DNA of 23,062 nucleotides. Origin: a virus. This document shows positions 9,590 through 17,495 of the stretch, piece after piece (within the stretch, counting starts at the first letter, position 1; every line of letters starts with the position of its first letter). The DNA lies in the IMG/VR virus record IMGVR_UViG_3300035670_001290, positions 1 to 23,062 of that record; one strand, given 5' to 3'. Under the pieces are notes generated by a model. The model was not told the DNA's origin. It did no database searches and saw only the letters and a program-made list of their open reading frames with translations. The translations under genes and the position numbers were made by a program.

Positions 9590-10026
9590 AAGAAGAACTT
9601 GAAAAACAACTCGTGGAAAAATACCCGAAAATCTTTGTCAATGTAGGTAGTACACCACAGCAAAGTCCAATGGCATTTGGCATTGAAACTGGTGATGGTT
9701 GGTATAACATCATCGATAAACTTTGCGGGAATATCCAGAATTACATTGATTACACGAATACAAGTAGGGAATCGCTTCTCAAGAAAAATTCGTACAATTG
9801 GCCAATTCCTGATGAGATCGAACAAGTAACGGCTGATCAGATCAAAGAAAAGTTTGGCACTCTACGATTCTATTACTCTGGCGGTGATACCAAGATTGAT
9901 GGTATGGCTCGGATGGCGGAATCAATGAGTGCAGTTACCTGCGAGAAATGCGGTAATGCTGGAAAGATTCGTGGCAAGCACTGGATCTATGTTTCTTGTG
10001 ATGAACATGCACGAGAAGGTGATTGA
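9586..10026 (+). CDS. conserved phage protein with C-terminal zinc-finger-like motif, 146 aa
   Basis: MKEELEKQLVEKYPKIFVNV opens a family common in tailed phages. A GDGWYNIIDKLCGNIQNYID block (about 36-55) follows, then VTADQIKEKFGTLRFYYSGG (about 83-102). The C-terminus holds CEKCGNAGKIRGKHW...SCDEHA, a possible zinc site from C-x2-C plus a C-x3-H. The role is unknown; the composite of a KFGTLRFYY strand and a Zn ribbon suggests nucleic-acid or protein binding. AAGGAG at 9573-9578 precedes the ATG. Confidence 0.86.
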   Translation: MKEELEKQLVEKYPKIFVNVGSTPQQSPMAFGIETGDGWYNIIDKLCGNIQNYIDYTNTSRESLLKKNSYNWPIPDEIEQVTADQIKEKFGTLRFYYSGGDTKIDGMARMAESMSAVTCEKCGNAGKIRGKHWIYVSCDEHAREGD

Positions 10027-10028
10027 AC

Positions 10029-10298
10029 ATGACATATAAGCAAGAGGTTGTTGATACAGCTATTGCAGCCATGAAGACTGGTGGTTACGCTGAAGCTGAC
10101 ATATTCAGATTGATTTTTGAACGAATTTACGACAGTGGTTATAACGAGGCTGTGAGAAATCTACATCAGTTTGAGTATAATAAACCAGTGCCACCGCTTC
10201 TTTCAATGGGATGTCACGTATGCGGGCTTGGAGCAAATGGAGAAATCATGGGTTATGTTTGTCACAATCCAGGTTGCCCAACAAAAATTACCTGTTAA
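10029..10298 (+). CDS. conserved phage hypothetical with Cys-rich C-terminus, 89 aa
   Basis: MTYKQEVVDTAIAAMKTGGY...FERIYDSGYNEAVRNLHQFE is helical. It is followed by CHVCGLGANGEIMGYVCHNP and GCP, a likely zinc-binding C-x2-C...C-x4-C arrangement. Similar proteins are frequent in phages; the role is unknown to me. I chose ATG 10029 over the TTG at 10023; AAGGTG at 10017-10022 is suitably placed. Confidence 0.8.
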   Translation: MTYKQEVVDTAIAAMKTGGYAEADIFRLIFERIYDSGYNEAVRNLHQFEYNKPVPPLLSMGCHVCGLGANGEIMGYVCHNPGCPTKITC

Positions 10299-10308
10299 AG
10301 GAGGTGAA

Positions 10309-10467
10309 ATGTCTAATTGGAAAGTAACATGGTGGGATGGTGCTCAATTACGAGAGACCATCGTCTATTCTGATGCATATAATGTAGCAAATTATGCAAT
10401 AAGTCGTGGAGTATTCTCTTATTCGATTCTTAAAATGGAACGAGTTCCTGCAAATTTTGAAAACTAA
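10309..10467 (+). CDS. hypothetical protein, 52 aa
   Basis: MSNWKVTWWDGAQLRETIVY followed by SDAYNVANYAISRGVFSYSI, which looks like two strands and a helix. The frame is open from 10171, but ATG 10309 lies six bases after an exceptionally strong AAAGGAGGTG, which settles the start. Small conserved-type phage protein without known function. Confidence 0.82.
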   Translation: MSNWKVTWWDGAQLRETIVYSDAYNVANYAISRGVFSYSILKMERVPANFEN

Positions 10468-10475
10468 ATAGACTT

Positions 10476-10497
10476 GATTGGAGTCTTTAATCCAATC
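10476..10497 (+). other. short hairpin in intergenic gap
   Basis: A perfect 7-base inverted repeat (GATTGGA 10476-10482, TCCAATC 10491-10497) encloses an 8-base loop. It lies in the 60-base gap (10468-10527) before the 10528 gene. No U-tract follows, so it is not a standard terminator. It could stabilise or process the mRNA just upstream of the leader of the next gene. Confidence 0.4.
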
Positions 10498-10527
10498 GTT
10501 CACACACTTACACACAAGGAGACTATT

Positions 10528-10761
10528 ATGTCTAACAAGAACGGTTTCGAACTACGCACTGATATCCTGGCTATGGCTAAGGACTACATGGATAAGCAAT
10601 ACCAATTGAATATGGAATTTGCTCGCAAGGCATTTGACGAAGCAGTTGCTGCTCAAAAGGTATCCGCTGATGCATGGAAGAAGTATGTTCCTGAGATTTA
10701 TACAATCGAAGACCTTATGAAAAAGGCGCAGGAGCTATACGGATTCGTTTCTTCCAAGTAA
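10528..10761 (+). CDS. conserved T4-like phage protein, 77 aa
   Basis: MSNKNGFELRTDILAMAKDY...QLNMEFARKAFDEAVAAQKV...YVPEIYTIEDLMKKAQELYG, entirely helical. This NGxExRTDxLxxAxDY...YTIEDLxKxAxxxYGFV pattern is common in T4-like phages of aquatic bacteria. The protein may be structural or assembly-related, but I know of no demonstrated role. ACAAGGAGACT supplies a strong ribosome-binding site. Start 10528 is preferred over an open frame from 10474. Confidence 0.85.
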   Translation: MSNKNGFELRTDILAMAKDYMDKQYQLNMEFARKAFDEAVAAQKVSADAWKKYVPEIYTIEDLMKKAQELYGFVSSK

Positions 10762-10769
10762 GGAGCGAT

Positions 10770-10979
10770 ATGTTAGGTCGAATTAAGAAGTTTTTTAATG
10801 CTATCTTTGATGTTGATACTCCACAACAAGAACTTGATGATTACTTGGAAAGCAAGAACATCAATTCAATTGTAGAGTTAGAATACTGGATGGCAGAATA
10901 CGATCGCAAGAAGCGAATTCGTTCTCGGTTAATATCAGAAGGAAAATATCGCGAAGCTGCGTGGACTATGAAACTTTAA
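10770..10979 (+). CDS. small phage protein, DUF3563-like tail, 69 aa
   Basis: Begins with an amphipathic MLGRIKKFFNAIFDVDTPQQ, then ELDDYLESKNINSIVELEYWMAEYDRKK. The acidic DxYL...DxxxLEYWMxEYDR pattern resembles DUF3563-type proteins and small T4-like phage proteins. AAGGAGCG precedes the ATG. It is the last gene with early-type codon use before the radical SAM island. Function unknown. Confidence 0.8.
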   Translation: MLGRIKKFFNAIFDVDTPQQELDDYLESKNINSIVELEYWMAEYDRKKRIRSRLISEGKYREAAWTMKL

Positions 10980-10986
10980 TTATTTT

Positions 10987-12489
10987 ATGGCTGAGTGTAT
11001 TATAATATCCAATGGAATCAGAAGGCAACACGAGTTTTTCTTACCTCAACGTTCTCTTGGACCGTATAGAATACACTCAGCGTTAAAGAATGCAGGTTTC
11101 GATGCGCTAGTTATAGACTTTATTGAAGATTTTAGCGAAGAAGAAACGTATACTGCTTTAAAAAATAACATAGGCAAAGAAACTCTGTGGGTTGGATTTT
11201 CCACAACGTTCTTTGGTAGTTACGGCACTGACCCGAATCAAGTTGATTTTGTTGAACGGGTTATTCGAATAACAAAATCTCTTAGTGACTGCAAAATAAT
11301 TTGTGGTGGTGCATCATTCGCACCGAGGATCTTAACTAAACTCGGAATAGATTATTTCGTTAATGGTAGTGCAGACGAATCAATAATAAATTTAACGAAT
11401 TACATAAAAACAGGCGACAATACACATTTGCCATACGTCGAAGAACTCGTGAATTCAGATGGGGTTGTGATAAAGCATATTTTATCAGAGAAGTATAAAA
11501 CTCCAGATTTGGATAAAATCTTTACAGATTGGACAGATCCGTCATACGGTTTAACAAAAGGTGAGCCAGTGACTATTGAGTTGGCTAGAGGGTGTATTTT
11601 TAAATGCAAATTTTGCGATTATCCTCTTCTTGGAAAAAAGAAGGGTACTTATACAGTCGATCCAGGTTTGATGCGAGAGAACCTCATTCGTTTGTGGGAA
11701 TCAAATGGCACAACGGATTATTACCTAGCCGACAATACCTTTAATGATGATAATGATAAGATGGAAACTCTGCATAAGATGTTCACGTCTTTACCCTTCA
11801 GACCAAGATTCAGCACATTTATTAGGTTGGATTTAATAAATAGATTCCCTCACCAGGCGGAAATGCTCACTGAGATGGGGTTGGTGTCAACCTATCTTGG
11901 TATAGAATCACTCAATTATGAGTCCGCCAGAGCAATAGGTAAAGGTCTACACCCAAACAAAGTGAAAGATAGGTTATACTGGTTGAAGGAAAAATGGAAT
12001 GGAAAGGCATCAATAACGGGTGGGTTTATCTTTGGGTTGCCATATGACACCGAAGCGTATTTTCAAGAATTCTTAAAGTGGTGTTTGCAAAAGGACAATC
12101 CATTAGATTGTATTTCTATAAGCCCTCTGTGGTTATCGAATAAACGATCTGAATTTTCAAGCAGATCTGAATTTGAATTGAATCCGGAAATTTATGGTTA
12201 TGAAATAGAAGAATCTAAGCAAAACAGTTGGGCATTACCATCACAAAATTTGTCGTACGAGAAATGTAAACTAATAACCGACACTTATCTCACAATACTG
12301 CAAAAACGGCAGAAAATAAACGATTTTTCATTAATAACTGCGATAAATTCCGGCGTTTCTTTAGAAGATGCTCTGTCTTTGCCATTCGTGCAGATATATG
12401 CGAAATACAATTTCAGGGATAAATACACCAGAAAAGAGTCAGTTAATGAGTATAAACAACGCACACTAAGAAAAAATAAAACACGCTAA
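10987..12489 (+). CDS. B12-binding-type radical SAM enzyme, 500 aa
   Basis: Class B-like radical SAM enzyme. Residues about 1-145 resemble the Rossmann-like cobalamin-binding domain (RSLGPYRIHSALKNAGFDAL, VGFSTTFFG, IICGGASFAP, VNGSADESI), although no DxHxxG cobalamin-ligating motif is seen. The radical SAM core carries C203-x3-C207-x2-C210 (GCIFKCKFCD), binding the [4Fe-4S] cluster that cleaves SAM. It continues YLADNTFNDD, STFIRLDLI and YLGIESLNYESARAIGKGL, typical of the B12-radical SAM barrel. Such enzymes methylate unreactive carbons or rearrange substrates, including peptides. No Shine-Dalgarno is visible (TTAATTATTTTATG), and the start is seven bases after the previous stop. AT-rich and AGA-rich, unlike upstream genes. 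Immediately followed by three putative substrate genes. Confidence 0.9.
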   Translation: MAECIIISNGIRRQHEFFLPQRSLGPYRIHSALKNAGFDALVIDFIEDFSEEETYTALKNNIGKETLWVGFSTTFFGSYGTDPNQVDFVERVIRITKSLSDCKIICGGASFAPRILTKLGIDYFVNGSADESIINLTNYIKTGDNTHLPYVEELVNSDGVVIKHILSEKYKTPDLDKIFTDWTDPSYGLTKGEPVTIELARGCIFKCKFCDYPLLGKKKGTYTVDPGLMRENLIRLWESNGTTDYYLADNTFNDDNDKMETLHKMFTSLPFRPRFSTFIRLDLINRFPHQAEMLTEMGLVSTYLGIESLNYESARAIGKGLHPNKVKDRLYWLKEKWNGKASITGGFIFGLPYDTEAYFQEFLKWCLQKDNPLDCISISPLWLSNKRSEFSSRSEFELNPEIYGYEIEESKQNSWALPSQNLSYEKCKLITDTYLTILQKRQKINDFSLITAINSGVSLEDALSLPFVQIYAKYNFRDKYTRKESVNEYKQRTLRKNKTR

Positions 12490-12513
12490 ATATAAAGTTC
12501 GTTGGAGTAACGT

Positions 12514-12873
12514 ATGTCAGTAACATTACAATCAGATAGACTTTTAATAACAAACACAAACAATAGGTGGGTCCACAAAGACGGAAGCAACCTAATGGGG
12601 TTTCTAAACACCAGTGCTGGGTGGGACATGTACGTTAATAATAGCGGTCAAATTTGGACTGCCAATTATGGTTGGTTGCACGACTATTTGTTTAACGCAA
12701 CGTCAAATTGTACCGCAGGGAATTATACTATATCCAGCGTGGTAAATTGTTATGGAAGCGGTAATATAGTGACTGCAAAAACGTTCGAATTGCAAGAATC
12801 CGGTGGCTCTACAGTGTACCCACGAGTTGTTCAATCACTAACCAACTGCAATTGCGCTTGTGATTGTTTATAA
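12514..12873 (+). CDS. tandem fibre-like Cys-tail protein, copy 1 (putative modification substrate), 119 aa
   Basis: Beta-rich, Gly/Asn-rich protein: residues 28-49 (MGFLNTSAGWDMYVNNSG and on) resemble the repeat units of phage tail-fibre proteins. NYGWLHDYLF, SNC (C66) and NCYGSGN (C79) follow, and the C-terminus is QSLTNCNCACDCL with Cys 112, 114, 116 and 118. It shares this plan with the next two genes and a 22-residue identical block with copy 2. A TGGAG ribosome-binding site serves ATG 12514. It sits directly behind the B12-type radical SAM gene, and a SPASM maturase follows, so it is a candidate substrate. No signal peptide. An unmodified disulphide- or metal-rich virion protein is the alternative. 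Confidence 0.88.
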   Translation: MSVTLQSDRLLITNTNNRWVHKDGSNLMGFLNTSAGWDMYVNNSGQIWTANYGWLHDYLFNATSNCTAGNYTISSVVNCYGSGNIVTAKTFELQESGGSTVYPRVVQSLTNCNCACDCL

Positions 12874-12891
12874 ATTCTTTCGGGTAATGAC

Positions 12892-13236
12892 ATGACAATA
12901 ACAGTAGGAACAAATACAGTAGATATCAACGGTAGATCTGTGCATTCAGACGGAACTAATATGGGGTTTCTGAACACGAGTGCTGGGTGGGACATGTACG
13001 TTAATAATAGTGGTCAAATTTGGACATCCAATTATGGATGGTTACATGGAACATTTTATAATGCAACAAGTAATTGTCTAACAATATCCACTGCTATGGG
13101 CGGAACTATCAATTGTTATGGAAGCGGTAATATAGTGACTACAAGAACGTTCGAATTGACCGATGCGGGTAGCCAAGTTTATGCACGAGTTGTCCAATCA
13201 CTAACTAATTGCAATTGCGCTTGCGATTGCCTATAA
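12892..13236 (+). CDS. tandem fibre-like Cys-tail protein, copy 2, 114 aa
   Basis: Same architecture as copy 1: the fibre-like block at residues 24-45 is identical in protein to copy 1 (28-49). SNC (C62) and NCYGSGN (C75) follow, with the C-terminal NCNCACDCL carrying Cys 107, 109, 111 and 113. DNA identity to copy 1 is also high in the block and around the NCYGSGNIVT segment, so duplication or gene conversion was recent. The N-terminal about 20 residues and the C62-C75 loop vary between copies. The ribosome-binding site is weak (TCGGGTAATGAC). A TATAAATT lies at 12869-12876 in the gap. Confidence 0.88.
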   Translation: MTITVGTNTVDINGRSVHSDGTNMGFLNTSAGWDMYVNNSGQIWTSNYGWLHGTFYNATSNCLTISTAMGGTINCYGSGNIVTTRTFELTDAGSQVYARVVQSLTNCNCACDCL

Positions 13237-13251
13237 AATAGGAATCAGGCT

Positions 13252-13593
13252 ATGTCTGTAACTTTAGAAAATACTGCAGTATTAGTTAACGGTCGCCGTT
13301 TACATAACGACGGCACGCTTATGGGATTCCTCGATACCAGCGGGAACTGGGATATGTATGCCAATAACGGCGGTAACGTTTGGAGTAAAAATTATGGTTG
13401 GTTGCATGATTACTTTATGAGAACGGTATCCAATTGCTTAACTGGTGGTGGTATATCAAGTGCAGTTAATTGTTATGGTGGTGGTAATATAATCACCGGC
13501 GCCACATTTGAGTTGCTTGATAATGGAGCAAGTTTGGGGTACAGAACAATACAATCGCTGACTAATTGCAATTGCGCTTGCGATTGCTTATAA
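13252..13593 (+). CDS. tandem fibre-like Cys-tail protein, copy 3, 113 aa
   Basis: Most diverged of the three copies: GFLDTSGNWDMYANNGGNVW at 25-44, NYGWLHDYF at 47-55, SNC (C62), NCYGGGN (C74) and the invariant QSLTNCNCACDCL end (Cys 106, 108, 110, 112). The exact conservation of the last 13 residues, while loops and N-terminus drift, indicates selection on the Cys tail. AGGAATCAGGCT supplies the ribosome-binding site. Candidate substrate of the flanking radical SAM enzymes; alternatively a virion appendage. Confidence 0.88.
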   Translation: MSVTLENTAVLVNGRRLHNDGTLMGFLDTSGNWDMYANNGGNVWSKNYGWLHDYFMRTVSNCLTGGGISSAVNCYGGGNIITGATFELLDNGASLGYRTIQSLTNCNCACDCL

Positions 13594-13615
13594 TTAAAGA
13601 CACGGAGATCTTAAA

Positions 13616-14482
13616 GTGGAATATTTTTATTTCGACTCATATAAGGGCGAGGATGTTTTATTTTCAATATCTTCCAATTCATCAGGTTTTTCTCTAGAGG
13701 TGTATGAGCAAAGCGAATACAGAGAATACACCAAAGAAGAAATAGAAGAGTTGAATACTAGCACCGCCGGCGATTATAGATTAGAAAGAGTGCCGTACCA
13801 AACTCCATGGGGGAATATACCGTTCCGACTAAAAACTACCATTGAGTTTTCTTTGGACGAGCTTTCGCAACAGAGATTAATCTGCGATCAGTCATATTTG
13901 GTGTATCAATATGGCATGACCCAGGCAAATGGTTGGAAGAACCTCACACAAGATCATTTTGTCACCAAAAAACCATTTAGACTATATTATATTGAAAATG
14001 ACATGAAGAATAATAATGTGACTGGTAGATTTGCTATCATAGTCCCATTCAAAGACAGCTCAGATTATAGTCTAGTTTTTTATAGAAACCATGAAGAGCA
14101 CCCAATCTTAATTGATGGTTCTCCGATATCAACTTCAAATAAAATAGAATTCAGTAGTGCTGCAGAAATAATCTCCATCAAAATCAAAGATAATTTGCTT
14201 AATGGTATGCAGTTGATGGTTCCATCAACTGCTGCTGTTGGTGAAGTGGTTGATTGTGAAGTCAAGATACTAAAAAATGGAGTTCCAATTACAAACGCAA
14301 ATTGCGAAGTGTATCTTGAAAATATTGGCGGTAGCTTGCCGATGTCTAGAATACAGGTATATAATGGAGTTGGGTCATTCAAGCTAGACACGGTTGGCGC
14401 TATATCTGGTCAAACCATACGAGTAAAGGCTGGATGGAAGTACTGGTCTGGAGAAGCAGAGGCTATCATAAACGTTGTTTAA
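13616..14482 (+). CDS. hypothetical protein with C-terminal Ig-like domain, 288 aa (GTG start)
   Basis: Residues about 1-200 (MEYFYFDSYKGEDVLFSISS... YLVYQYGMTQANGWKNLTQD...) are beta-rich and of no family I recognise. The last about 85 residues (MQLMVPSTAAVGEVVDCEVK, ILKNGVPITNANCEVYLENI, SFKLDTVGAISGQTIRVKAG) have the strand pattern and small-residue signature of bacterial/phage Ig-like (Big/invasin-type) domains, which often decorate virion surfaces. The GTG at 13616 follows CACGGAGATCTTAAA and is the first start after copy 3. Its place between the Cys-tail proteins and the SPASM maturase suggests a partner or scaffold, perhaps virion-exposed; this is inferred. Confidence 0.78.
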   Translation: MEYFYFDSYKGEDVLFSISSNSSGFSLEVYEQSEYREYTKEEIEELNTSTAGDYRLERVPYQTPWGNIPFRLKTTIEFSLDELSQQRLICDQSYLVYQYGMTQANGWKNLTQDHFVTKKPFRLYYIENDMKNNNVTGRFAIIVPFKDSSDYSLVFYRNHEEHPILIDGSPISTSNKIEFSSAAEIISIKIKDNLLNGMQLMVPSTAAVGEVVDCEVKILKNGVPITNANCEVYLENIGGSLPMSRIQVYNGVGSFKLDTVGAISGQTIRVKAGWKYWSGEAEAIINVV

Positions 14483-14500
14483 TTATATTTGAAGGATATT

Positions 14501-15868
14501 ATGTTTAAAATTCATGCACTAACGCCTGACAAACAAAACACTGTGATTTATTATTATGATCAACATACTTCTACATTAACAGATGAAGTCGGAGCCCCAG
14601 TAGTTCCTTTGGTTGAATCTGTCGAATTTGATAGATCATCGTTTAAACAGTTTAAATCTGTTTCAAAACACAACCCAGGAAAAAAATCTTCAGAACCAGA
14701 AGTTCTAAAGATTAGTCTTGGACTTTCTTGTAATTATTCATGTGAATATTGTTCACAAAGGTTCGTTCCACATTCGGATTCGACGAACCAAGACGACATA
14801 GATGAATTCTTGAGTATGTTGTTTAAGAACATAACAAAACCACCACAGAGAATACAATTCTGGGGCGGGGAACCATTTGTTTATTGGAAAACATTTAAAC
14901 CTTTGGCAGAGAAAATAAAAGAACACTGGGGGGAAGAACCAATATTCTCAGTTATAACCAATGGAACTCTGTTGGACGAAGAGAAAAACGAGTGGCTCGA
15001 TAGATTGAATTTCTCAGTCGGTATATCTCACGACGGTCCTGGATATCATGCAAGAGGGCTGGACCCATTGTTTGATCCAGAGAAGAAAAAACACATAATG
15101 GATTTGGTGCAGAGACTTAAACCAAAGAAACGAATAAGCATAAATGCAGTCCTGCACAAAGCAAACAGGTCAAGAGCGGATGTACAGGCATTCCTAACTT
15201 CTGTTTTCGGAGAAGACATTAATATCGGAGAAGGCGAATACATAGATTCATACGACGAAGGCGGATACGATTCTATGATGGACACGGTCGACGATCATTT
15301 TGCCTTTAGAAAACAGGCAATATACGATATAAGAAATGGTCTGGCGAAGAATTTTAACGTCGTGCACATTAAAATTCATGAATTTATAAAATCATTACAA
15401 TCAGGAAGACCATCATATGCGCTGGGGCAGAAATGCGGGATGGACAAACCAGAGCATTTAGCGGTGGATCTGAAGGGTAATGTTGTTACATGTCAAAACG
15501 TTAGCGCTGCCGCTGTATCCCATAATGGAGAATCGCATAAATTAGGACATCTAACTGACTTGGATTCTGTTGAATTAAAGACAGCAACTCATTGGGCGAA
15601 TAAAGACAAATGCAAGGCATGTCCCGTTTTGCAACTCTGTAAAGGTTCTTGTATGTTCCTCGAAGGCAATCTTTGGGAAGAATCTTGTAATTCCTCATAC
15701 TCAGGGAATATAGTTTTCTTGGCAGCTGGTATAGAATCAGTTACTGGAAATATCCCAGTCTTTATAGATGGCGAGGGGTTACCAGAAGAGCGCAAAGATA
15801 TATTCAACTTAATGAACAAACAATACGGAATCGCAAAAAAGAAGTTTATACCAATAGCACAAGTTTAA
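14501..15868 (+). CDS. radical SAM/SPASM peptide or protein maturase, 455 aa
   Basis: Radical SAM core with C77-x3-C81-x2-C84 (CNYSCEYC), a GGEP motif (FWGGEPF, about 118-124) and FSVITNGTLL. The C-terminal SPASM domain is complete: C312-x13-G-x4-C331, then C371-x2-C374-x5-C380-x3-C384 and C396. These are the seven Cys that bind two auxiliary [4Fe-4S] clusters. SPASM proteins mature peptides or proteins (anaerobic sulfatase maturase, PqqE, thioether-forming sactipeptide/ranthipeptide synthases), so a peptidyl substrate is expected. Residues 1-70 are an extra N-terminal segment that could bind a substrate; a RiPP recognition element cannot be confirmed by eye. ATG 14501 follows GAAGGATATT. Eleven of 13 Arg codons are AGA/AGG. 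Likely substrates are the proteins encoded at 12514-13593. Confidence 0.93.
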   Translation: MFKIHALTPDKQNTVIYYYDQHTSTLTDEVGAPVVPLVESVEFDRSSFKQFKSVSKHNPGKKSSEPEVLKISLGLSCNYSCEYCSQRFVPHSDSTNQDDIDEFLSMLFKNITKPPQRIQFWGGEPFVYWKTFKPLAEKIKEHWGEEPIFSVITNGTLLDEEKNEWLDRLNFSVGISHDGPGYHARGLDPLFDPEKKKHIMDLVQRLKPKKRISINAVLHKANRSRADVQAFLTSVFGEDINIGEGEYIDSYDEGGYDSMMDTVDDHFAFRKQAIYDIRNGLAKNFNVVHIKIHEFIKSLQSGRPSYALGQKCGMDKPEHLAVDLKGNVVTCQNVSAAAVSHNGESHKLGHLTDLDSVELKTATHWANKDKCKACPVLQLCKGSCMFLEGNLWEESCNSSYSGNIVFLAAGIESVTGNIPVFIDGEGLPEERKDIFNLMNKQYGIAKKKFIPIAQV

Positions 15869-15871
15869 ATT

Positions 15872-16594
15872 ATGTTTAATGTGAATTATTCAATCGGGGG
15901 TGTGAACACCAACCGTGTTGTTGATCAGATTTATGAATTGGTGAATTTTGAGCCAGTTCCTTTATTGAAACATATAAAGGAACAAAACCCAGGCTCAGAA
16001 TTCATTCACTGCCCTGCATTCATAGAATATGTTAAAAACGCCTTTGTTATAAAATCCGCATACAACTTAAAAATTCTAATAGACTCGGAGAATCAAAGGG
16101 TTTCAGTGAAACCGCACTCTATCAACGAGTCTGAATTTAATTATGACGTGATTAAACCAACATTAAAGAGCAGAGGGTTTAATTCTGGTTCTTTGACGCT
16201 AACCCTACCTCCGTCAATCTATTTTTGGTCAAAAAAATCGTGTCACATCGAATCAATGTCAATGATATTGGATACAAAACACGATATATGTCAAAAAGCA
16301 AAGGTAATTCCAGGTACGTTTGATATATCGCGATGGTTTAGGCATTTGGATTTCACGTTTCAGATTAATGAAAACATCAAAGAAACAATAATAAACAGAG
16401 GCGATCCATTATTCGCAGTTAGATTTGTGACTAAAAATAATGAGAAGGTTTCTTTGATGCGAGTTAAATTTGAAGACAAACATATTGCCCTAGAAAACTC
16501 AACTGTAGGGTTAAAGAGGATTTTCAAAGAACCCAAATTAGAAAACCTATATACGATATTCGATAAAATTAAAAAAATGACAGGTGTTTTTTAA
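15872..16594 (+). CDS. conserved phage hypothetical, 240 aa
   Basis: MFNVNYSIGGVNTNRVVDQI..., EFIHCPAFIEYVKNAFVIKS (about 43-62) and a later VIPGTFDISRWFRHLDFTFQ (about 146-165) followed by NRGDPLFAVRFVT. The combination of CPAFxxYxKNxFVIxS, IPGxFxIxxWFRxxDFxF and RGDPLFxVRF is one I associate with a phage family of unknown function, found in T4-like phages of aquatic bacteria. It sits three bases after the SPASM gene and nine bases before the oxygenase, in the same low-GC style. It may be an accessory of the modification system or a virion component. Confidence 0.82.
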   Translation: MFNVNYSIGGVNTNRVVDQIYELVNFEPVPLLKHIKEQNPGSEFIHCPAFIEYVKNAFVIKSAYNLKILIDSENQRVSVKPHSINESEFNYDVIKPTLKSRGFNSGSLTLTLPPSIYFWSKKSCHIESMSMILDTKHDICQKAKVIPGTFDISRWFRHLDFTFQINENIKETIINRGDPLFAVRFVTKNNEKVSLMRVKFEDKHIALENSTVGLKRIFKEPKLENLYTIFDKIKKMTGVF

Positions 16595-16603
16595 GAGTTT
16601 ATT

Positions 16604-17257
16604 ATGGAAATACAAAAAATAACATTTAAAAGCGAATCCGCTTGCTTACCTTCTCTAACAATACCATTCGGTATTTCAAAGTTCGATTCAAACGATGAAC
16701 TGTTAGACTTTTGTTTACGAGAAGAACCGAATATATTAAGAGAAGTATCTCCACCGCCTACTAGAATTGGCGACGAGAATTGGATGACATCAAGACTATA
16801 TTCTTATAATTTATTCGACTACGAAGACGATGTTATACAAAAATTAAAAGATCATATAAGACAAGGATATCAGTCATACATAACACATTTCGGCAGACAA
16901 GACCATAAAGTGTACGTACATGGCTGGATCAATGTATTACAATCAGACGGAAGGTTTATAACTCCGCACGATCATAGAAATGCGCATTGCGGAGCGCCTG
17001 AGAATACGTCATTTATATCCGGTAATATGAGCCTCCGAGCGAAAGACACGAATACGTATTATATGAATGTCTTCACATCAGCAAGAGTCTCTATAAAAAA
17101 CATACCTGGGGAAATGGTTTTCTTTCCGTCTTTTTTGACTCACTGGACTGATAAAAACCCATCGTCTGAAGAATCAAGGGTTTCTATTGCATTCGATCTC
17201 ATAACTGAACCGGTTTATGAGCAATATGGACGAGACTTGTTCACTCTATTAGTATAA
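16604..17257 (+). CDS. putative 2OG-Fe(II) oxygenase, 217 aa
   Basis: Resembles the TIGR02466-like/prolyl-hydroxylase-like oxygenases, with a double-stranded beta-helix carrying non-haem iron. YVHGWINVLQSDGRFITPHD leads to H122-D123-H124. The distal iron His is H180 (FFPSFLTHWTDKN), and R192 in SRVSIAFDL would bind the 2-oxoglutarate carboxylate. MVFFPSxLxHxxxxN...ERxSIAF is the family's most recognisable block. Which of D123 or H124 serves as a ligand is uncertain. Such enzymes hydroxylate proteins, nucleic acids or small molecules. As the third redox enzyme in the island it may hydroxylate the same substrate. Nine of 12 Arg codons are AGA/AGG. Confidence 0.8.
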   Translation: MEIQKITFKSESACLPSLTIPFGISKFDSNDELLDFCLREEPNILREVSPPPTRIGDENWMTSRLYSYNLFDYEDDVIQKLKDHIRQGYQSYITHFGRQDHKVYVHGWINVLQSDGRFITPHDHRNAHCGAPENTSFISGNMSLRAKDTNTYYMNVFTSARVSIKNIPGEMVFFPSFLTHWTDKNPSSEESRVSIAFDLITEPVYEQYGRDLFTLLV

Positions 17258-17261
17258 TTCT

Positions 17262-17495
17262 ATGATAAATTTATATAAAATACCAAATGATAAACTCCCG
17301 CATTTCATTGTTGGCACGTTAGTTTTCGCAGTATTCCATTTCTTTAACCCATTGACTGGGATAGTAGCTGCAACAGTTGCAGCAGTCGGAAAAGAAATTT
17401 ACGACTATTTCCATAAAGACAAACACACACTCGATCCATGGGGTGCCATAGCCACTATCCTCGGTGGCGTTATTGGATTCATCTGTAGCATGTAG
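17262..17495 (+). CDS. two-helix membrane protein, 77 aa
   Basis: MINLYKIPNDKLPHFIVGTL starts a hydrophobic hairpin: TM1 about residues 13-38, then GKEIYDYFHKDKHTLDPWGA, then TM2 about 60-77 (AIATILGGVIGFICSM). The DKxxHFxxGxL...AAVGKEIYDY...DxWGAIATxLGGxxG signature belongs to a common family of small phage and bacterial membrane proteins of unknown role. It starts four bases after the oxygenase stop, and its own stop touches the promoter at 17496. Whether it belongs to the island or to the flanking phage core is undecided. Confidence 0.83.
   Translation: MINLYKIPNDKLPHFIVGTLVFAVFHFFNPLTGIVAATVAAVGKEIYDYFHKDKHTLDPWGAIATILGGVIGFICSM

Follow-up and report, generated by a model that had tools for sequence, protein, structure and literature searches.

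Alternating-cysteine tails on phage tail-fibre proteins and their radical SAM/SPASM companion: a probable fibre-tip maturation cassette

The gene run and its three tandem proteins

The window, by which we mean the whole stretch of DNA that was analysed, is a virus record of 23,062 bases. It carries a compact run of genes on the + strand, separated from each other by 3-24 bases, in the following order: a B12-type radical SAM enzyme (10987..12489), which stops 24 bp upstream of the next gene; three copies of a putative fibre-tip protein, located at 12514..12873 (copy 1, 119 aa), 12892..13236 (copy 2, 114 aa) and 13252..13593 (copy 3, 113 aa), each of them ending in NCNCACDCL; a 288-aa protein with a C-terminal Ig/invasin-like region (13616..14482); a radical SAM/SPASM enzyme of 455 aa related to phrog_1802 (14501..15868), with a CxxxCxxC motif and a complete 7-Cys SPASM motif, which is our candidate for the maturase of the tail; a 240-aa protein related to phrog_17480 (15872..16594); and finally a 2OG-Fe(II) oxygenase (PF13759, phrog_81; 16604..17257), a gene type which recurs in the cassettes described below.

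A first-pass annotation of this DNA had described three tandem proteins, each with exactly six Cys of which the two internal ones are 12-13 residues apart, with a GFL[ND]TSxxWDMYxNNxG block and with the same 13 final residues. All these features were recovered in all three copies. The 13-residue tail, QSLTNCNCACDCL, which we propose as the substrate of a radical SAM enzyme, is encoded on the + strand at 12832..12870 in copy 1, at 13195-13233 in copy 2 and at 13552-13590 in copy 3. The annotation had also spoken of drifting bodies, which is correct for the N-terminus, for the loop after WLH and for copy 3 but not for the GFL...WLH core, where copies 1 and 2 are nearly identical (1 non-synonymous codon of 28). 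When the codons of the tail are compared between the copies, the three pairs have 5, 6 and 3 synonymous differences and no non-synonymous one, while outside the tail every pair has 12-13 non-synonymous codon differences in the N-terminal part and 22-27 between the core and the tail. Since the differences within the tail are all synonymous while these two regions differ non-synonymously, the codons indicate that the tail is kept by purifying selection and not merely by recent copying or chance.

Taken alone, the three proteins have no significant match in Pfam, PHROGs or NCBIfam, and none of them contains an HxH motif of the type found in iron-binding fibre tips. A tblastn search of copy 1 against 50,697 phage records gave weak matches only, one of them being a Hint-bearing fibre of Achromobacter phage 2-1. 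We built a body profile from the three copies and one relative, with which 80 viral loci were found. A single round of model building brought the number of matching ORFs to 83; most have about 190-545 aa, and in these the body forms the C-terminal part and is followed by tails of the NCNCNCNC type. The relatives which end in an NCxCxC(xC)n tail range from 113 to 616 aa, the protein of 616 aa belonging to a bacterial genome. Longer members of the profile have matches to the tail-fibre families of PHROGs and to collagen repeats; so do the tail-bearing proteins, which also match Shufflon_N. These matches place the tail on fibre proteins and identify the body, by profile, as a domain of phage tail fibres; the suggestion that longer tail-fibre proteins of related phages might end in the same tail proved right. 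The form seen in the window is short and triplicated, and single short forms exist at four loci (L005, L021, L030 and L032). By eye, one can notice a fatty-acid desaturase-like ORF without a Pfam match within the fibre-tip cassette of L030 (11562-12308). The AlphaFold monomer of the body is of low confidence (pLDDT 66) and its Foldseek matches are non-significant; no solved structure similar to the body by sequence was found.

The SPASM enzyme and its pairing with the tail

The radical SAM/SPASM enzyme of the window has its catalytic and SPASM motifs intact. Its Cys C77, C81 and C84 (CxxxCxxC) and C312, C331, C371, C374, C380, C384 and C396 (SPASM) are invariant among 40 sequences, and the canonical SPASM arrangement (CX9-15GX4C, CX2CX5CX3C, C) is present. 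The SPASM model TIGR04085 scores 35 bits for a cut-off of 27, PF04055 is above its cut-off, and phrog_1802 matches residues 53-401 with an E-value of 1e-60. The reaction-specific models behave differently: the top sequence profile, NF047865 (PapB), scores 75.9 bits for a curated cut-off of 340, TIGR03942 (anaerobic sulphatase-maturating enzyme) 53.9 bits for 349, and TIGR03906 (QhpD) 49 bits (E 2.7e-13) for 453. The predicted model of the enzyme is confident (pLDDT 92.8), and its best VIA-align matches are CteB (Z 24.0), ChlB (21.7), anSME (21.1) and TigE (18.8), with rmsd of 3.4-5.0 over 317-367 residues. These matches span enzymes of different reactions, and the predicted common fold does not by itself show function. 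We take the enzyme to be of the peptide- or protein-modifying SPASM type, in a family without a name, whose reaction is not readable from homology because its scores are far below every reaction-specific curated cut-off.

The association between tail and enzyme was examined with three scans having different anchors. When the anchor is the body, 72 of the 80 viral loci, like the window, have an orthologous enzyme on the same strand at a distance of 0.8-5.4 kb downstream; at the 8 others the contig ends 2-1,877 bases past the body gene. Among 50 whole records with a body gene, PF04055 is present in 46, and the other four end within about 220 bases of that gene. The orthologues at the viral loci are about 50% identical to the enzyme of the window, and clustering at 80% identity sorts the 66 full-length enzymes into 20 groups. 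A scan of viral sequences with the enzyme as single query had no match.

When the anchor is the tail, the scan uses a DNA pattern for NCNCNCxC, which is blind to the enzyme and misses tails with other spacers. Among the matches listed, 49 are genuine tails, of which almost all close their ORF and six lie at a contig edge; for the remaining tails, 43 out of 43, a radical SAM gene is found in the same record. Two of these 43 are of a special kind: in L195 the ORF continues beyond the motif and the enzyme is upstream, and in L197 the ORF continues into a Hint-like domain. As a control, again among the matches listed, we considered 24 records whose match falls in non-coding sequence, is in the wrong frame or for another reason is no tail: only one has a radical SAM gene, and it is a 103-kb contig with seven such genes. 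Seven more records among the matches listed, where the Cys motif is not C-terminal (mostly a small KNCNCNCHC protein), have none. Across many unrelated phages, a C-terminal tail of alternating Cys is thus hardly ever found in a record that lacks a radical SAM gene. The first-pass annotation would have abandoned its link to this chemistry if such tails were common in phages devoid of the gene; among the matches listed, they were not found.

The small protein just mentioned is a viral product of 56-79 aa in which KNCNCNCHC stands close to the N-terminus and more CxC motifs come after it; it is seen on six short contigs (L175, L176, L177, L182, L193 and L224) on which no radical SAM gene was found, and is perhaps metallothionein-like. 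In L179, a record of 47 kb, a fibre-like ORF (9830-11279) carries a Cys-rich NCNCNCNC stretch close to its beginning and not at its end; no radical SAM gene was found in this record.

When the anchor is the enzyme, in bacterial genomes, we counted the 63 loci having at least 5 kb of upstream sequence: a tail gene lies upstream on the same strand within 5 kb in 50 of them, and the mirror positions give 1, 2 and 1 of 63. The count at 70% identity is 23 out of 33. After pooling of the loci, with enzymes made non-redundant at 80% identity, a tail is nearby in 53 of 61 cases. Among the eight enzymes without a nearby tail, L153 has an Ig-like gene and the other seven have no cassette partner in the scanned range; these seven are mostly in chromosomal, non-phage-looking surroundings, and for one of them (L162) a tail gene was found on the downstream side, at 3.6 kb. 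As no upstream tail and no other cassette partner was found at seven of 61 loci, the enzyme family seems to have further jobs besides the tail cassette. Chromosomal relatives of the enzyme without a Cys tail, mostly beside an ORF of about 770 aa, were seen in Ramlibacter, Variovorax and a gammaproteobacterium (L145, L149, L154, L156 and L165); they perhaps represent a different use of the same family.

The three scans agree with each other, and the link between the constant tail and the radical SAM gene is strongly supported by the test which the first-pass annotation itself had set. We considered whether the pairing could be an artefact of the ancestry of one phage lineage, and rejected this, as the paired enzymes diverge to about 30% identity and are distributed over 14 body families and several host orders.

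Body families and cassette partners

The body families were defined by BLAST on the 140 residues preceding the tail, for 164 tail proteins with a downstream enzyme. The 14 families obtained share no detectable sequence with each other, so the pairing is independent of the body. Since the tail persists across all of them, the comparison indicates that the partner of the enzyme is the tail and not the body. Among 55 distinct tails, the number of alternating Cys varies from 3 to 9, an Asn precedes the first Cys in 48, and the approximately 228 spacer residues include 147 Asn, 32 Asp and 22 Ala.

A Hint domain directly follows the tail in two Achromobacter phages, JWF and 2-1, and in Burkholderia paludis. 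A Hint-type domain (CFPAGT...) after the Cys tail was seen in L085 (5685-7127), L086 (5679-7130), L112 (5727-7253) and L197 (1163-2593), the call for L197 being by sequence only. Self-cleavage just past the tail might there expose the tail end. Polynucleobacter necessarius (L009 and L135) has a frameshifted enzyme and a split oxygenase, and one Cys is missing from its tail, NCNCDRNCGC; the parts of the cassette thus decay jointly.

The tail is the most constant partner of the enzyme. Two other genes often lie between them: an Ig/invasin-like protein, to which the product of 13616-14482 in the window belongs, at 41 of the 61 non-redundant loci, and a 2OG-Fe(II) oxygenase at 31 of 61, with a coiled-coil-like protein instead at 8 of 61. 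Given its nearly equal frequency, the Ig-like protein could also be a substrate. Three non-redundant loci have the tail and the enzyme without any detected partner. PF13759 matches 20 of 27 representatives of the oxygenase set, and it matches the oxygenase of the window with 34 bits, above the cut-off of 27; the identity of the set rests on Pfam, the hhalign comparison with the oxygenase of the window being circular as the set includes it. The 240-aa protein which separates the SPASM enzyme from the oxygenase has no profile relation to oxygenases and no homologue in other cassettes.

The B12-type radical SAM enzyme has no homologue in the 50,697 phage records; its homologues were found only in L194, which has two copies beside a tail and a SPASM enzyme. 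From its position, it is probably an extra tailoring enzyme of the cassette of the window. Several radical SAM genes were also seen beside tails on other viral contigs: L189 (3054-10408) has four profile-scored ones and a fifth ORF with the motif next to a Cys-tail gene, and L181 (173-4353) has two, with three tail genes sharing an SDDS-type end.

Proposed function and known systems

We interpret the locus as a cassette for fibre-tip maturation: the SPASM enzyme would modify the Cys ladder, with thioether cross-linking as the most likely chemistry. As a whole, we regard this reading as probable. Short tail-fibre tip proteins would carry a C-terminal ladder N-C-x-C-x-C-x-C, where x is mostly Asn, Asp or Ala. 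In the infected cell, the enzyme encoded at 14501-15868 would modify this ladder post-translationally and may join the sulphurs of its Cys to neighbouring residues by thioether bonds. The 2OG-Fe(II) oxygenase would help by hydroxylating some of the spacer residues, and the B12-type enzyme would perhaps assist in the phage of the window. The outcome would be a rigid cap, resistant to reduction, on the exposed fibre end, the part which presumably meets the receptor during infection; such a cap could set this contact. The parts of this reading are not equally firm. The pairing itself is established; that the ladder is the substrate of the radical SAM/SPASM enzyme we infer with good confidence; the thioether chemistry is put forward tentatively and is slightly more doubtful than not. 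In a broader form, tailed phages of Burkholderiales, Rhodobacteraceae and other hosts would use dedicated radical SAM enzymes, often together with 2OG oxygenases, to cross-link a C-terminal Cys-Asn ladder into a non-natural structure which they need for adsorption, a generalization on which we are evenly divided. If true, it would amount to a kind of virion maturation, and a type of substrate for radical SAM enzymes, not described before.

Other readings of the tail must be weighed against this one. The first-pass annotation saw in it a constant processing or recognition site on a variable displayed body, the reverse of a leader-core RiPP. If the tail were a recognition handle only, the enzyme would modify the body or the Ig-like partner; the tail is indeed the most constant part of the copies, and the Ig-like gene is frequent. 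But the families of bodies have no detectable sequence in common and the tail stays nonetheless, some loci consist of the tail and the enzyme with no detected partner, and it is the tail which holds the Cys, a common target of SPASM enzymes, so that we find this reading quite improbable. Because the tail is C-terminal and Cys-rich, varies in length and spacers and persists on swapped bodies, it is more likely a modified core than a recognition site, and a core at the fibre end has the usual N-to-C order, not the reverse one. Proteolytic processing left no sign in the window, and a self-processing Hint domain follows the tail in some relatives only. These Hint domains (JWF, 2-1 and Burkholderia paludis) could suggest the release of a bacteriocin-like RiPP by cleavage at the end of the fibre; in most cases, however, and also in the window, the fibre protein stops with the tail, and profile scanning of the window ORFs at 10770-17495 revealed neither a protease nor an exporter family, which makes this reading extremely improbable.

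The ladder could also stay unmodified, the CxCxC tails of a trimer binding metal or forming inter-chain disulphides while the enzyme acts elsewhere. A strand with Cys at every other position is well suited to metal or disulphide clusters, fibre tips that bind metal through HxH are known (PMC11705849), and both the N-terminal ladder of L179 and the small KNCNCNCHC family occur without a radical SAM gene. A purely structural role, however, would not predict the constant company of a radical SAM gene, mostly of one family, across the 14 body families, and we consider this reading unlikely. Alternatively, the enzyme could convert the Cys of the tail to a reactive group, such as the formylglycine made by anSME, with which the tip would bond its receptor covalently. 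This would agree with the strong structural match to anSME (Z about 21) and with the annotation of the JWF enzyme as an anaerobic sulphatase-maturating enzyme; yet the sequence profiles favour PapB above anSME, and four or more alternating Cys fit repeated cross-links better than a single aldehyde, so that conversion to such a reactive group appears to us decidedly unlikely.

If the preferred reading, a maturation cassette acting on the ladder, is true, an enzymatic carbon-centred modification takes place at the point of first contact between phage and host. The reading would also assign a role to a family of enzymes which so far bears only the name "radical SAM domain-containing protein". Biochemists would have at their disposal a large natural set of SPASM enzymes and substrates, with a simple repeat as substrate in 55 distinct versions. 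Known phage fibres mature by folding, chaperones, self-cleavage or metal binding. No earlier description of a link between radical SAM enzymes and tail fibres was found in the open-licence literature searched, and an enzymatic finishing step for phage tail-fibre tips is apparently undescribed so far.

Among known systems, QhpD (TIGR03906), the maturase of quinohaemoprotein amine dehydrogenase, is a SPASM enzyme acting on a protein subunit and not on a short peptide; its substrate is different from the one proposed here. In proteusins such as polytheonamide, a repeated Asn core is tailored by radical SAM, B12-radical SAM and Fe/2OG-type enzymes; proteusins differ by their epimerases and N-methyltransferases, of which we saw none, and by a substrate which is not a fibre. 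Another comparison is with Achromobacter phage JWF, whose gp30 (phrog_1802) belongs to the same family as the enzyme of the window and whose gene order matches after a fibre gene carrying NCNCDCNC, the JWF fibre having a Hint domain past its tail while those of the window have none; no function of phrog_1802 and no link of it to fibres was found in the open-licence literature searched. The metal-loaded tips of T4 gp37 (HxH) and of alterophage R22Y also have a short repeated ligand motif on a trimeric fibre, but with His rather than Cys and with no maturation enzyme described (PMC11705849). Finally, PapB and the ranthipeptide maturases (NF047865), as well as CteB, likewise join a radical SAM core to a SPASM domain and have a Cys-rich substrate encoded nearby; their substrates are small peptides, whereas the one proposed here is the end of a tail-fibre protein. 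The Cys-X3-Asp/Glu motif of PapB substrates is absent from NCNCACDCL, where the Cys-Xn-Asp spacings are n = 0, 2 and 4, not 3; PapB, which forms thioethers between Cys and Asp or Glu, accepts Cys-Xn-Asp with n = 0-6 (PMC9413430).
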